A stretch of DNA of 64,000 nucleotides from Rhodohalobacter mucosus (GTDB lineage: Bacteria; Bacteroidota; Rhodothermia; Balneolales; Balneolaceae): positions 248,001 to 312,000 of the forward strand of contig NZ_QGGB01000009.1 in the NCBI RefSeq assembly GCF_003150675.1, written 5' to 3'. The position numbers and the translations under genes were made by a program. Shown here piece by piece: positions 22,391-48,758 of this stretch; within the stretch, counting starts at the first letter, position 1, and the number at the start of each line of letters is the position of its first letter. Below the pieces are notes generated by a model, which saw nothing but the letters and a program-made list of their open reading frames with translations, did not search any database and was not told the origin of the DNA.

Positions 22391-22915
22391 TCAATTAATA
22401 TTCACCGCTCCCTGAAATTCACGTTTCAGCGCTACGCTCCCGGTTCTTGACATTTCAGTGATACCATACGGTTTCAGTACTTCAATCATGGCGTCTACCT
22501 TGTCGGTGTTTCCGGTGACTTCAAGTGCCAGCTTATCGTCTGTTATGTCGATCACTTTGGATTTGAATGCCTGAGCAATGAGCATGATTTCGGATCGACC
22601 GGCTTTTGCGGTGGAAACCTTTATAATGGCCAGTTCACGCTCGATGCATTTCTTATGGGTCAGGTCGGTTACCTTTAACACATCGATCACATTGTGGAGA
22701 TGCTTATTGATCTGCTCAACCGTTTCCTCATCGCCATATGTGGTAATGGTTATGCGCGCCATGCCCCGTTCAGCCTCAGCCGCAAAGGTGACGCTCTCAA
22801 GCTCAAACCCTTTTCCGCTGAAAATCCCGATAATTCTGGAAAACGTATTCAGGTTGTGTTTCACAAGCACGGAAAGCGTATGCCGGGAATCTTTGGAGAC
22901 TGTTTTAACTTGCAT
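22391..22915 (-). CDS. ilvN: Acetolactate synthase small (regulatory) subunit
   Basis: A 174-residue regulatory subunit that activates IlvB and mediates valine feedback. The N-terminal ACT domain is seen as HTLSVLVKHNLNTFSRIIGIFSGKGFELESV. A second ACT-like C-terminal part follows. Its ATG overlaps the ilvB stop (TAATG), so it is translationally coupled; a GTG nine bases upstream is a less likely start. Confidence 0.95.
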   Translation of the reverse strand: MQVKTVSKDSRHTLSVLVKHNLNTFSRIIGIFSGKGFELESVTFAAEAERGMARITITTYGDEETVEQINKHLHNVIDVLKVTDLTHKKCIERELAIIKVSTAKAGRSEIMLIAQAFKSKVIDITDDKLALEVTGNTDKVDAMIEVLKPYGITEMSRTGSVALKREFQGAVNIN

Positions 22916-24699
22916 TATCCGCACTCCTCGTCAGATTCAACCATTTCGTTAAGGGCAGCTCCGGAGGGCACCATCGGGTAGCAGTTTTCCGTTTCAACAA
23001 CCCGGAAATCCATTAATACGGGTCCGTCATGGATGTTCATTGCTTTATCCAGAACCTGCTTCATCTCTGCGGGATTGGTAGAGCGCATCCCGACGGCGCC
23101 GTAGGCTTCAGCCAGTTTCACAAAGTCAGGGTTGTTGGATCCGAAGACGGAGAAGCTGGTGCGGTTGTCGTAGAAGAGCTGCTGCCACTGGCGAACCATG
23201 CCCAGGCAGCTGTTATTCATCAGGGCAATTTTTACCGGTATTTTATACTCAACGGCGGTTGCGAGTTCACAGGAGAGCATTTGGAATCCGCCGTCGCCCG
23301 TGATGCAAACTACATTGCGGTCGGGACAGGCAAGAGCCGCACCCATGGCTGCCGGAAAACCGTACCCCATGGTACCCAGTCCGCCCGATGATATCCAGGA
23401 TCGCGGATAGTTGAAATTGTAATGCTGGGCCGCCCACATCTGGTGCTGACCCACATCAGTCACAACGATCGCATTGCCTTCGGTGGCATCAGAAATCATT
23501 TTCATCATATGTTGCGGATAGATTTTATCGTCTGCCTCCGGAACAACCAAAGGATGGTCACTCTTCCAGCTATGAATGGTATCCCACCAATCTGAAATAC
23601 CGGGAGGAGCAGCCAGCCGGTCGATAGCGGGAATGACTCTTTTGACATCTCCCACAATGGGGACCTCCACCGGCACATTTTTCCCTATACAGGATGGATC
23701 GATATCAATGTGGATTTTTCGTGAGTGGGGTGAAAATCCATCCAGCCGCCCGGTTACACGGTCATCGAAGCGGGCACCAACGGCAATGAGCACATCACAC
23801 TCGGTCATAGCCATATTTGCGTACCATGTGCCGTGCATACCCAGCATGCCGAGTGATTGCGGCTGGCTTTCCGGAAAGGCACCCAGCCCCATGAGGGTCG
23901 TGGTGACCGGAATATTCAATCGTTTGGCAAATGCGGTAAGCTCGTGCCAGGCGTTTCCTGAAATAACACCTCCACCGGCATATATTAACGGCTTTGTTGC
24001 GTTGGAGAGCATTTCAGCCGCTTTTTCAATTTGTGGATGATGCCCCTGAAGGGTTGGCTTGAAGCTCGGGATTTCCACTTTTTTCATTCCCGTAAATCGC
24101 CCTTTTGTATTGAGCATATCTTTTGGGAGATCCACAAGTACGGGGCCTGGGCGGCCGTTGGTTGCAATGTGAAAAGCCTCACGAATTACGTGCTCCAATT
24201 CCGAGACATCCCGGACCAGGTAGTTTTGCTTGGTAATAGGACGGGTAATGCCAACGATATCGGCTTCCTGGAACGCATCGTTACCAATCACACCGGTGGG
24301 TACCTGCCCTGTAAAGACAACCAGCGGAATGGAATCCATCATAGCGGTTGCGATACCTGTAACCGTATTCGTACCGCCGGGACCCGATGTGGCCAGAACA
24401 ACTCCGGGCTTACCTGTTGCCCTTGCATATCCATCAGCGGCATGCGCACCGGCCTGTTCATGACGAATGAGAATGTGTTTTAAGTCATGGTTATCAAAGA
24501 GGGTGTCGTATACGGGAAGAACCGCTCCGCCGGGATAGCCGAAAATCGTATCAACACCAAGGTCGGCGAGCGTTTTGATCAGAATGCCGGCGCCATTGTC
24601 AGTACCGGAGTCCGGAAGTACAGAAGCTTGCTCAACGGGTTCAAACGAAGGGACAGAAACTGTTTTTTGAGCCGGGTATGTTGAATTGGTTGATTTCAT
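22915..24699 (-). CDS. ilvB: Acetolactate synthase large (catalytic) subunit
   Basis: A 594-residue thiamine-diphosphate enzyme making acetolactate and acetohydroxybutyrate, the shared step of Val, Leu and Ile synthesis. [13 protein letters not shown] near residue 50, the catalytic-Glu region [20 protein letters not shown] near 75, [10 protein letters not shown] in the FAD part and GDGGFQML...MNNSCLG as the ThDP/Mg motif are present. Start uncertain: ATG 24699 and in-frame ATG 24750 are both open, and the second lies inside the loop of the leader stem. It is the first gene of the ilv-leu run. Confidence 0.95.
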
Positions 24700-24706
24700 A
24701 TGTCTT

Positions 24707-24785
24707 GCGGGTATACGTTTCCCGCCAGAGGTCGTAAGATGAAATCGCATTGTGAAGTGTGACTGCGGCTTTTAACCTCTGGCGG
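24707..24785 (-). promoter_or_regulatory. Alternative RNA stems upstream of ilvB
   Basis: On the minus-strand transcript, CCGCCAGAGGT (24785-24775) pairs perfectly with ACCTCTGGCGG (24732-24722), 11 bp. A second stem, GCGGG (24725-24721) with CCCGC (24711-24707), shares four bases with the first, so the two cannot form together. The first arm begins seven bases after the stop codon of the Ile/Leu-rich leader frame. No U-run follows, which points to control of ilvB translation or Rho access rather than intrinsic termination. Function is inferred. Confidence 0.6.
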
Positions 24786-24791
24786 ATGGGG

Positions 24792-24938
24792 TTATCTAAT
24801 AATTAGAATTAGAATGCCAGAGATTAGAGATAGAATCAGAATCAGAATGCTAATAATGCTGATGGCAGAAAGATCAGATAAAGATATCGTGGAAACTGAA
24901 TATTCTATCGCAGCGATAAGAGTAAGGGATCCAATCAA
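24792..24938 (-). CDS. Candidate ilv-leu leader peptide, Ile/Leu-rich
   Basis: The frame ends TAA at 24794-24792, six bases before a stem that precedes ilvB. Of its last 25 codons, 11 are Ile (mostly ATT) and six are Leu (CTA/CTG), in an alternating pattern; there is no Val codon in that stretch. Such a codon run before a branched-chain operon is the hallmark of a leader peptide sensing charged tRNA. No ATG exists in the frame: TTG at 24938 gives 48 residues, and the frame is open up to a TTG at 25085. A genuine small hydrophobic membrane protein is the main alternative. Confidence 0.45.
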   Translation of the reverse strand: MIGSLTLIAAIEYSVSTISLSDLSAISIISILILILSLISGILILIIR

Positions 24939-46660: not shown

Positions 46661-47539
46661 TTAAGCAATCATTGATTCAATTGGCAGCATCACAATTCCT
46701 GTGGCACCTGCTTCCTTCAGGTTTTCCATCACGTTCCAGAATGTAGAGAGTGGTACAACCGTATGAATGGCAACCATGCCGTTATCTGCCAGAGGCATAA
46801 CGGTAGGGCTTTTCAGTGACGGAATAATCTGCTTGATCTTCGGAACGGCCTCTTCAGGGGCGTTCATCATGATGTATCTGCTTTGAGATGCTTTCTTGTG
46901 GCCCTCAATTCGCTGCAGAATCTTCCGGATCATCTTCTGTTTGCCTTCAGAAAGCGGCTTGTTGGTTTGAATGAGCTGGGTTTCGGAATCAAATATCTTC
47001 TCAATTTCGACCAGTCCGTTGGCCTTAAGGGTGCCTCCCGTGGAAACAAGGTCTGATATTCCGTCAGCAATTTCGAGGCGGGGAGCGATCTCAACAGACC
47101 CTGAAAGCGTGATGATATCGACATTCAATCCTTTATCCTCAAAGAATTTACGTGTCAGAACCGGATAGCTGGTGGCTATTTTCTTTCCATCCAGGTCTTC
47201 CACGTTTTGGGCGGATCCGTTTTTGGGAATGGCAATCGCAAGCCGGCATACGCCATAGCCCAGTCCCCGCAGAATGGTAACGTCGGCTTCGTCTTCTGCA
47301 ACGGTATTGGCTCCCACAAATCCGAGGTCGCAGACGCCATCCTCTACATATTCCGGAATATCGTCATCACGGATCAGCAGCAGTTCCACGTCGAAGTTCA
47401 GGCATTTTACGAGCAGACTTCGCTTATAGTCGTCAAAATGAAGGCCGATACCTTCGAGCAGGTTTAGGGTTTTGTCGGTTAGCCGTCCGCTTTTTTGTAC
47501 GGCAATTCGAAGTGATGTAGTCGAATCAAGAGTTCTCAT
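46661..47539 (-). CDS. hisG: ATP phosphoribosyltransferase, long form
   Basis: A 292-residue HisG of the long, hexameric type, committing ATP and PRPP to histidine. RIAVQKSGRLTDKTLNLL near the start, VCDLGFVGANTVAED near residue 70 and the PRPP loop LEIADGISDLVSTGGTLKANGL near 155 are typical. The last ~75 residues form the ACT-like histidine-feedback domain (MIRKILQRIEGHKKASQSRYIMMN). First structural gene, 84 bp after the leader frame. Confidence 0.97.
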   Translation of the reverse strand: MRTLDSTTSLRIAVQKSGRLTDKTLNLLEGIGLHFDDYKRSLLVKCLNFDVELLLIRDDDIPEYVEDGVCDLGFVGANTVAEDEADVTILRGLGYGVCRLAIAIPKNGSAQNVEDLDGKKIATSYPVLTRKFFEDKGLNVDIITLSGSVEIAPRLEIADGISDLVSTGGTLKANGLVEIEKIFDSETQLIQTNKPLSEGKQKMIRKILQRIEGHKKASQSRYIMMNAPEEAVPKIKQIIPSLKSPTVMPLADNGMVAIHTVVPLSTFWNVMENLKEAGATGIVMLPIESMIA

Positions 47540-47622
47540 TGGAAAATCAGTAATAGTTTAAATAAGTAAGTTGTGTCAGAATCGATAAAAGGGCAGAAAA
47601 AGGAAGGAGTATATAAACTGAA

Positions 47623-47694
47623 TCAGTGCACAAAATGCCCGTGGCTGCCGTGATGGCGATGAAAAAAGAGAGTGGTATGTGTGTGTAGTTGCAT
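47623..47694 (-). CDS. hisL: Candidate histidine leader peptide
   Basis: An ATG at 47694 opens a 23-codon frame to TGA 47625-47623. Eight codons are His (positions 4, 6, 12, 14, 15, 18, 20, 23) and it begins MQLHTHTT. This ratio, the length and the place (84 bp before hisG on the same strand) are the hallmark of a his leader. Between its stop and hisG no strong hairpin with U-run is seen; only a weak GGGCA/TGCCC pairing is possible. Confidence 0.7.
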   Translation of the reverse strand: MQLHTHTTLFFHRHHGSHGHFVH

Positions 47695-47701
47695 CACGCA
47701 A

Positions 47702-47732
47702 TAAAGGTATGGAGTTCAATTTTAAAAGCCAA
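47702..47732 (-). promoter_or_regulatory. Candidate his operon promoter
   Basis: On the minus strand TACCTTTA (47709-47702) matches seven of eight positions of TAnnTTTG, with a TTG about 20 bases upstream (47732-47730). It would start transcription just before the leader ATG at 47694, leaving a very short 5' end. Confidence 0.4.
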
Positions 47733-47770: not shown

Positions 47771-47809
47771 AAAAAAAATAGCCCGGTTCAATGGGAGGAA
47801 CCGGGCTAT
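47771..47809 (-). terminator. Terminator of the DUF4382 gene
   Basis: On the minus strand, ATAGCCCGGTTC pairs perfectly with GAACCGGGCTAT around an 8-base loop (47809-47778), followed by T8 (47777-47771). It lies 85 bp after the DUF4382 stop and before the his leader. Confidence 0.85.
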
Positions 47810-47894
47810 CGGGGTATTGCACTTTGAGCGGGTACAGCAGTGATTCTGCCGTTCCTACTCATAAAAAGGCACCTTTATCAATCAGAAAATCGAC

Positions 47895-48758
47895 TTATTG
47901 CACCTCCTGGAGGCTTAGCGTATCAACAACGGTTGTATCCGGAGCAGAGACTTCAATTCCCTCAACACGTATCTGGTCGTATACGGTAGTGTCCGGGAAT
48001 ACAGCCACATCATAGGTGCCGCTCAGCAGGCCAATCATCAGATACTCGCCCAGCTCGTCCGCGCGGGTTCCGGCGAGGGTATCCTCATCCGCAATAGCAT
48101 AAACCCAAGGCATTGCATCGGCCGGTTCTACAGTCCCGGCAATGGCCCCTGTTCGTGCAAGATCAACGGTCTTGATAACAGGTTTCAGCAGGTACTTACC
48201 GGAATTTCCGGCTTTTACAATAGAGCGGCTGGCGTCAAAATCCAGCAGCAGTGTATAAACGGCATTGCTTTCCACTTCGGCATGAATGTTAAGCTTCAGG
48301 CCAGACTGCTGCGCACTGGGTGTTGTCAGTTTCTTTGTCGCACCATCCACGGTAATTTCGTTTTCATCTCCCAGAATCAGGCGCATCTGGGAATAGGTGC
48401 CTGCTTCAAGTTCTGTTTCACCCAAAAATTCGGTTATACCATTGGTGAGTTGCAGAAGATCTACCTTTTGCGGTTCATCGGAAATAATAATCCATTCGCC
48501 GTCACTTTCCTGATCTTCTCCGTCATTGTCTCCGTCAGAATCCGAGTCTTCTTCCATCACGGCATCTTCATTTTTGTGAATTCGGATTTCGCGGATGTCT
48601 ATGACCACTGATTCGTAGTCAGCCGGGGCGTCGGTTAAAAACACGCGCATGGTACCGGGTTCGTCACTGTTATCGGAGTTCACTTCCAGACTTTCACAGG
48701 AAGCGAAAACGAACACCAGGCTAAAGGTTGCGAGCATCAGTTTGTTTACAATCTTCAT
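47895..48758 (-). CDS. DUF4382 lipoprotein with carboxypeptidase-like domain
   Basis: A 287-residue protein with lipoprotein signal (FASC near residue 20). GTMRVFLTDAPADYESVVIDIREIRIH near residue 35 and LLDFDASRSIVKAGNSGKYLLKPVI near 175 are typical of DUF4382; the last ~85 residues (GAIAGTVEP...GTYDVAVFPDTT) form a carboxypeptidase-regulatory-like beta sandwich. A run DSDSDGDNDGEDQESDG is very acidic and may bind calcium. Role unknown, cell envelope. Confidence 0.85.
   Translation of the reverse strand: MKIVNKLMLATFSLVFVFASCESLEVNSDNSDEPGTMRVFLTDAPADYESVVIDIREIRIHKNEDAVMEEDSDSDGDNDGEDQESDGEWIIISDEPQKVDLLQLTNGITEFLGETELEAGTYSQMRLILGDENEITVDGATKKLTTPSAQQSGLKLNIHAEVESNAVYTLLLDFDASRSIVKAGNSGKYLLKPVIKTVDLARTGAIAGTVEPADAMPWVYAIADEDTLAGTRADELGEYLMIGLLSGTYDVAVFPDTTVYDQIRVEGIEVSAPDTTVVDTLSLQEVQ

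Follow-up and report, generated by a model that had tools for sequence, protein, structure and literature searches.

Leader peptides and Rho in operon control

The classical his attenuator, known from enterobacteria (RF00514) and with counterparts in Bacteroidia, has a short His-rich frame just before hisG that is co-transcribed with it, and a helix that involves the leader end. Neither Rfam nor the usual screens pick up attenuators without a terminator, because recognition usually relies on the pair of terminator and antiterminator. In mycobacteria, leaderless polycysteine leader frames were reportedly described as attenuators by Canestrari et al. in 2020 (cited in PMC9094748). They resemble the locus analysed here in that a small open reading frame rich in the sensed amino acid, leaderless there and probably leaderless here, precedes an operon, and differ from it in the amino acid (cysteine) and the phylum.

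In Salmonella mgtL, stalling of the ribosome favours a stem-loop and complete translation exposes a Rho loading region (PMC5021804), and in E. coli tnaC the RNA is shielded from Rho by a ribosome that is retained on the leader (PMC5021804). Translation of CruR, an upstream open reading frame of Bordetella, controls Rho-dependent termination, and the rut site there is an unstructured bubble with more C than G (PMC9426467). For amino-acid operons of F. psychrophilum, clues to leader-peptide attenuation were reported, along with a conserved 5' element upstream of hisG (PMC9723704). Among the open-access papers searched, Rho-dependent regulation in Balneolota and Bacteroidota is little described, and no paper on leader peptides of Balneola was found in that literature.

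Here, we followed up a His-rich frame in front of hisG that an earlier note had picked out in 64,000 nucleotides of Rhodohalobacter mucosus DNA (the window, meaning the whole stretch that was analysed). The frame is very probably a genuine, histidine-sensing his leader. In its working it resembles an amino-acid attenuator, yet it is not a classical his attenuator. Position, His richness, co-transcription and the involvement of the leader end in a helix are shared with the classical type, whereas the leader of Balneolaceae very likely has no intrinsic terminator, does not match RF00514, is probably leaderless and in most genera has its stop codon inside a conserved helix. Our preferred reading, to which we assign a probability of roughly 0.45, is ribosome-mediated his attenuation without an intrinsic terminator, with Rho as the terminating agent; the leaderless start, the stalling, the sign of the switch and the part played by Rho are what we infer in it.

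The leader frame and its promoter

The his leader peptide gene lies on the minus strand at 47697 to 47623 and consists of a probable GTG start, 24 codons in all, and a TGA, read from the sequence as (V/M)MQLHTHTTLFFHRHHGSHGHFVH with eight His residues. The product can also be written as M(M)QLHTHTTLFFHRHHGSHGHFVH, starting at 47697 or 47694. From the TGA at 47623, 83 nt lead to the ATG of hisG at 47539 on the same strand. hisG (46661 to 47539, minus strand) is of the long form with a C-terminal regulatory domain (NCBIfam TIGR00070 and TIGR03455, above cut-off) and heads the operon hisGDCBHA, beyond which lies hisF (NCBIfam). Among frames of 12 to 45 amino acids, eight His residues are unique to the leader in the 64-kb window, the runner-up frames having six, and in first-order Markov simulations of the window (n = 15) the maximum of His per short frame was 5 to 7. 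The sequence thus confirms a His-rich frame before hisG, as had been noticed at the outset, and places it far above chance.

A promoter of the Bacteroidota type precedes the frame. A TTG that resembles the -33 element (47732 to 47730, minus strand) is followed after 20 nt by TACCTTTA (47709 to 47702, minus strand), a -7-like element of the TAnnTTTG type that recurs in the family, and after another 4 nt by the GTG at 47697. TAnnTTTN was found just upstream of an in-frame start in 52 of 69 distinct family leaders, compared with 19 of 343 control windows of the same size. Where the element is present, the start codon (GTG or ATG) mostly follows after 4 to 5 nt (43/52 loci), and 28 of these 52 loci have a TTG 17 to 22 nt upstream. 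Given where the -7 element usually sits in the phylum, the transcript should start on the start codon of the leader or very few bases from it. For this reason, ATG 47694 is probably the second codon and GTG 47697 the likely start, and the leader mRNA would be leaderless. Of the frame as it had been described before, the His richness stands, and the 23 codons from ATG 47694 probably give way to 24 codons from GTG 47697. A transcription start downstream of 47694, which the earlier note had named as an argument against a leader, is unsupported, since no TAnnTTTG promoter recurs between leader and hisG (three exact matches in 69 spacers).

Further upstream, the strong intrinsic terminator of the preceding gene (47895 to 48758) is located at 47777 to 47810 on the minus strand and has 13 pairs, 7 of them GC, and then a T-run. 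It insulates the leader promoter and separates the unit from its neighbour.

Conservation in Balneolaceae

Upstream regions of hisG were collected from the family, the order and the phylum, plus 80 named genomes. In a maximum-likelihood tree of hisG, Balneolaceae formed a clade of 66 rows (support 100/97). The window belongs among Rhodohalobacter relatives in this family. A His-rich frame was found at the same place upstream of hisG in all 66 rows, and the leader peptides drift strongly outside their His residues; homologous upstream regions without such a frame, proposed earlier as a possible refutation, did not turn up among them. Where the reading changes, the leader end is still preserved as RNA (...GTG CAC TAA, read as VH*; ...GCA TAA, read as A*; ...CGC GTAA, also read as A*). 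The distance from leader to hisG is short, at 56 to 127 nt.

Four divergent hisG genes in the family (42–44% identity) lie outside the usual pattern and look as if they had been replaced. Three of them have no leader. The fourth (locus L052 of genome G015, 44% identity) is preceded by a His-rich frame with a classical terminator, which would fit a replacement of hisG together with its attenuator by transfer.

Absence of an intrinsic terminator

No intrinsic terminator was found between leader and hisG in the window, where the nearest terminator-like site is the one at 47810 to 47777 (minus strand), upstream of the leader. It is likewise absent at the his leader in 65 of the 66 Balneolaceae rows; the only flagged row (L170) has an extended stop-codon hairpin of -10.6 kcal/mol with a broken U-tract, and its status as a terminator is doubtful. 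The lack of a classical terminator/antiterminator pair, which had been noted for the window, is therefore borne out and is a trait of the family. Rfam gave no family above threshold (window region scanned with E up to 10, 14 relatives at gathering score), and RF00514 (His_leader) matched neither the window nor the 14 relatives at gathering score.

Most of the sampled Bacteroidia and Ignavibacteria that have a his leader combine it with a strong terminator (around -9 to -23 kcal/mol). Both types occur in the sister family within the order, with terminators at L071, L072 and L203 and none at L206 to L208. In Balneolaceae themselves, the trpE leaders of six genomes (L220–L224 and L226) contain a Trp-Trp-Trp run and a classical hairpin with a T-run, and classical attenuation therefore works in this family. 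As terminators are present at trpE in the same genomes and at related his leaders, their absence is specific to his, and without an intrinsic terminator there is no terminator/antiterminator switch at the Balneolaceae his leader.

Two further observations concern other leaders. At the trp leader end in Balneolaceae, a GGCAGTGG-like sequence can pair with the 5' arm of the trpE terminator hairpin. In another family of the phylum (f11), four loci (L077, L098, L101, L102) have His leaders with no strong terminator; three show a hairpin over the stop codon (ATCGCC..GGCGAT), and some then have a weak A/U-rich hairpin and a T-run. This group possibly lost the strong terminator in parallel.

A co-varying helix at the stop codon

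Two helices, P1 and P2, were followed in the leader RNA. P2 surrounds the stop codon and lies at 47591 to 47640 (minus strand) in the window, where GGGCA (47640–47636) pairs with TGCCC (47595–47591) and an inner pairing of ACTG (47627–47624) with CAGT (47620–47617) lies around the stop codon. P1 is a hairpin formed in relatives by the His-codon part of the leader RNA; the corresponding stretch of the window (47641 to 47690, minus strand) folds weakly, and P1 is recognised by the arm-swap test described below. The GGGCA/TGCCC pairing had been called weak. It does exist, but it is more than that, namely the window version of the conserved, co-varying P2. The window alone does not reveal this, as its leader-to-hisG RNA is no more stable than shuffles (z -0.52), and the evidence for P2 is hence comparative. 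Measured against dinucleotide shuffles in 69 loci, the mean z was -1.26 for P1 and -1.56 for P2 (around the stop), and the 5' part of the leader folded no better than the shuffles.

Consensus folding with MAFFT and RNAalifold was unusable for groups A and C, because loop lengths differ and the arms misalign; the Fodinibius group alone aligned well, and its hairpin shows compensatory changes. Arm-swap tests were adopted for this reason, in which 3' arms are exchanged among loci and own pairing is compared with swapped pairing, so that co-variation is tested without an alignment. By fold, P2 gave z -5.4 over all loci (p < 2e-4), -4.3 for group C alone and -2.6 for group A alone, and P1 gave -3.7 in group A, -2.4 in group C and no signal in group B, values that overstate independence, as do all z values of this test, because the loci are mutually related. 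Control stretches were null (spacer +1.6, leader 5' part +1.3), and the duplex version of the test between leader end and spacer reached z -8.5. Examples of paired P2 arms are GTGC/GCAC, ACGC/GCGT, GCGC/GCGC and CTGTGC/GCACAG, and the arms of P1 change jointly in relatives with GATGTCC/GGACATC. In groups A, C, D and F, each of the 59 loci has at least three pairs across the stop codon. Group B (Fodinibius) has them in only 4 of 10 loci, and its hairpin lies just downstream (GTAGC/GCTAC against GCAGC/GCTGC).

Other pairings were not sustained. A 1:2 / 2:3 switch, with pairing between the His-codon part and the leader end, left no signal across the family (z +0.6). For the leader end and the hisG start, z was -2.4 when all loci were pooled and about 0 inside the single groups, so this pairing was taken as clade structure and rejected. 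No mutually exclusive antiterminator and terminator helices were found; the spacer past P2 (+15 to +60) is essentially unstructured, with a mean fold energy of -0.8 kcal/mol in the family, and it has no partner in hisG. In one genus (L046, L048–L050 and L188), leader and spacer can form a helix of 12 bp, GGGGATTTGTGC / GCGCAAATCCCC, well beyond the length reached in other loci, with which a local pairing of GGGGAT and ATCCC competes.

It could be asked whether P2 and a following U-rich stretch act as a weak, factor-assisted intrinsic terminator (of the NusA/NusG type), left over from a degraded classical attenuator. True terminators in sister lineages of the order (L071, L072, L203) would fit such an origin, and in several loci a U-rich tract indeed lies 0 to 7 nt past P2, as in L036 (GTGCATTAATTGCAC followed by CTTTTTTG), L003 (GCACA followed by CTTTTTTG) and, with its stronger hairpin and broken U-tract, L170. 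However, where the terminator scan finds P2 it mostly has -2 to -6 kcal/mol, and the terminators of related his leaders are far stronger (about -9 to -23 kcal/mol); in many loci there is no U-run near P2. The sign would be wrong as well, because a ribosome stalled upstream by starvation would permit P2 and thereby end transcription, and P2 cannot sensibly be a terminator if it marks the starved state, when the operon ought to be transcribed. Its energy, the U-tracts and the sign led us to reject P2 itself as the terminator in the main model, and a weak terminator of this kind is considered unlikely.

Rho as the candidate terminating agent

In the preferred reading, with Rho terminating, the leaderless transcript would start on the first codon of the leader or only a few bases away, and ribosomes would read the eight His codons. 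When His-tRNA is scarce, the ribosome would stall in the His stretch, so that the last codons are free to pair past the stop as P2, and the stalled ribosome and P2 (in relatives also P1) would keep the RNA of leader and spacer occupied. When His-tRNA is plentiful, the ribosome would reach the stop, open P2 and leave about 80 nt of naked, pyrimidine-rich and G-poor spacer, on which Rho would load to end transcription before or early in hisG.

The geometry suggests that P2 is controlled by ribosome position, as outside Fodinibius a ribosome that has arrived at the stop codon sits on the 5' arm of P2. Fodinibius deviates, and its ribosome at the stop may not open the hairpin, because this lies just past the stop codon. 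In Gracilimonas and Balneola, the loop of P2 is short and so leaves most of the spacer uncovered; either P2 as a roadblock or the stalled ribosome as a shield is needed there, which weakens the Rho model.

The spacer of the window (47540 to 47622, minus strand, 83 nt) is pyrimidine-rich, G-poor (C 24%, G 6%) and unstructured, and represents a possible Rho loading region. Across the family, the first 35 nt past the leader stop have fractions of.33 C,.11 G and.18 A, compared with.155 C and.395 A in the same 35 nt of terminator-type his leaders and with.10 C and.42 A between stop and terminator of the family trp leaders. Spacers of the individual groups are 64–70% pyrimidine with G-free runs of 26–47 nt on average, and group C (Gracilimonas/Balneola; 28% C, 8% G) shows a moderate excess of C. 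This composition is suggestive and not diagnostic, because two other 5' regions in the window are equally C-rich and G-poor.

The sequence features of an mgtL-type system are present, namely a leader with His codons, a co-varying stop-codon helix and an open, C-rich and G-poor spacer. Control codons (proline in mgtL) lie in the leader in both cases and the proposed logic is the same, but amino acid, operon and phylum differ, and Rho dependence is shown for mgtL and proposed by us for the his leader. With tnaC, the his leader would share the shielding from Rho by a ribosome on the leader; the arrest in tnaC depends on the nascent peptide and free tryptophan, whereas a plain shortage of charged His-tRNA is proposed here. 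CruR is alike in that translation of an upstream frame controls Rho-dependent termination, and differs in being a copper-binding, protein-length frame rather than an amino-acid sensor.

Rho was found above the curated cut-off in all six Balneolaceae genomes checked. Six Balneolaceae genomes also encode a second Rho-like protein of about 400–420 aa, compared with about 500–560 aa for normal Rho, which scores below the Rho cut-off (418–427 bits; for example G000:C9:98421-99503, plus strand); the copy in G006 has two stop codons inside.

Control of translation and other alternatives

The leader might instead set the translation of hisG by coupling, re-initiation or folding of its start, with no stop in transcription. 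The missing terminator and the short distance to hisG (56–127 nt) agree with this, as do an ilvB leader in the same window, whose strong hairpin lacks a U-run and lies close to the ilvB start, and the mycobacterial leaderless polycysteine frames that reportedly act as attenuators (Canestrari 2020). Against it, the hisG start had an unpaired probability of about 0.60 in 23 loci whether the ribosome was absent, stalled early or at the leader stop. Occlusion of the start by a changing RNA fold is therefore unsupported and was discarded. Pairing of spacer and hisG was also weaker than in swaps (z +2.2), and re-initiation after a completed leader would favour expression at plentiful histidine, which is the wrong sign for biosynthesis. 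Control of translation is thus judged improbable, and among the options listed at first (translational coupling, Rho and ribosome stalling) Rho fits best.

That the stalled ribosome and P2 stabilise a leaderless his mRNA by guarding its 5' end appears quite unlikely; it would be in line with the conserved 5'-proximal structure and with a naked U/C-rich spacer that RNases could cut, but a nuclease site in leader or spacer is only hypothetical. That the His-rich frame is a chance product or a relic without function is refuted by the comparative data, since the frame is preserved in 66/66 family rows of the hisG tree, and promoter spacing and a co-varying helix go with it, even if the window sequence alone folds unremarkably.

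Significance of a terminator-less his leader

We tentatively propose that Balneolaceae swapped the intrinsic terminator of his for a Rho-dependent switch, made of a leaderless His-codon sensor and a stop-codon helix, with trp staying classical. If this is true, the terminator arm would be a replaceable part of ribosome-mediated attenuation, and Rho-dependent attenuation of amino-acid genes would not be confined to Proteobacteria. The terminator-less his leader is fixed across the family; the trp attenuator of these genomes is of the classical kind, and sister lineages have classical attenuators at his. The contrast of Balneolaceae with these sisters is a natural comparison for how one attenuator design becomes another, and the locus offers a testable case of Rho in amino-acid control in Balneolota and Bacteroidota.

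Other leaders in the window

At aspartokinase genes, no Thr-type or other leader was evident. A second leader precedes ilvB (22915 to 24696, minus strand) in the region 24732 to 24900 (minus strand), where an Ile/Leu-rich frame (...SIISILILILSLISGILILIIR*, stop at 24794–24792) is followed by a strong hairpin, CCGCCAGAGGTT (24785–24774) / ACCTCTGGCGG (24732–24722), with no U-run. All 10 Rhodohalobacter genomes that matched ilvB have a leader ending in S-I-L-I-S-G-I-L/I, together with hairpin arms that read GCCAGAGGTT/GACCTCTGGC or differ from this only slightly. The leader codons TCTGGC can pair with the 5' arm of the hairpin, and the ilvB leader may be another terminator-less attenuator, perhaps a translational one.
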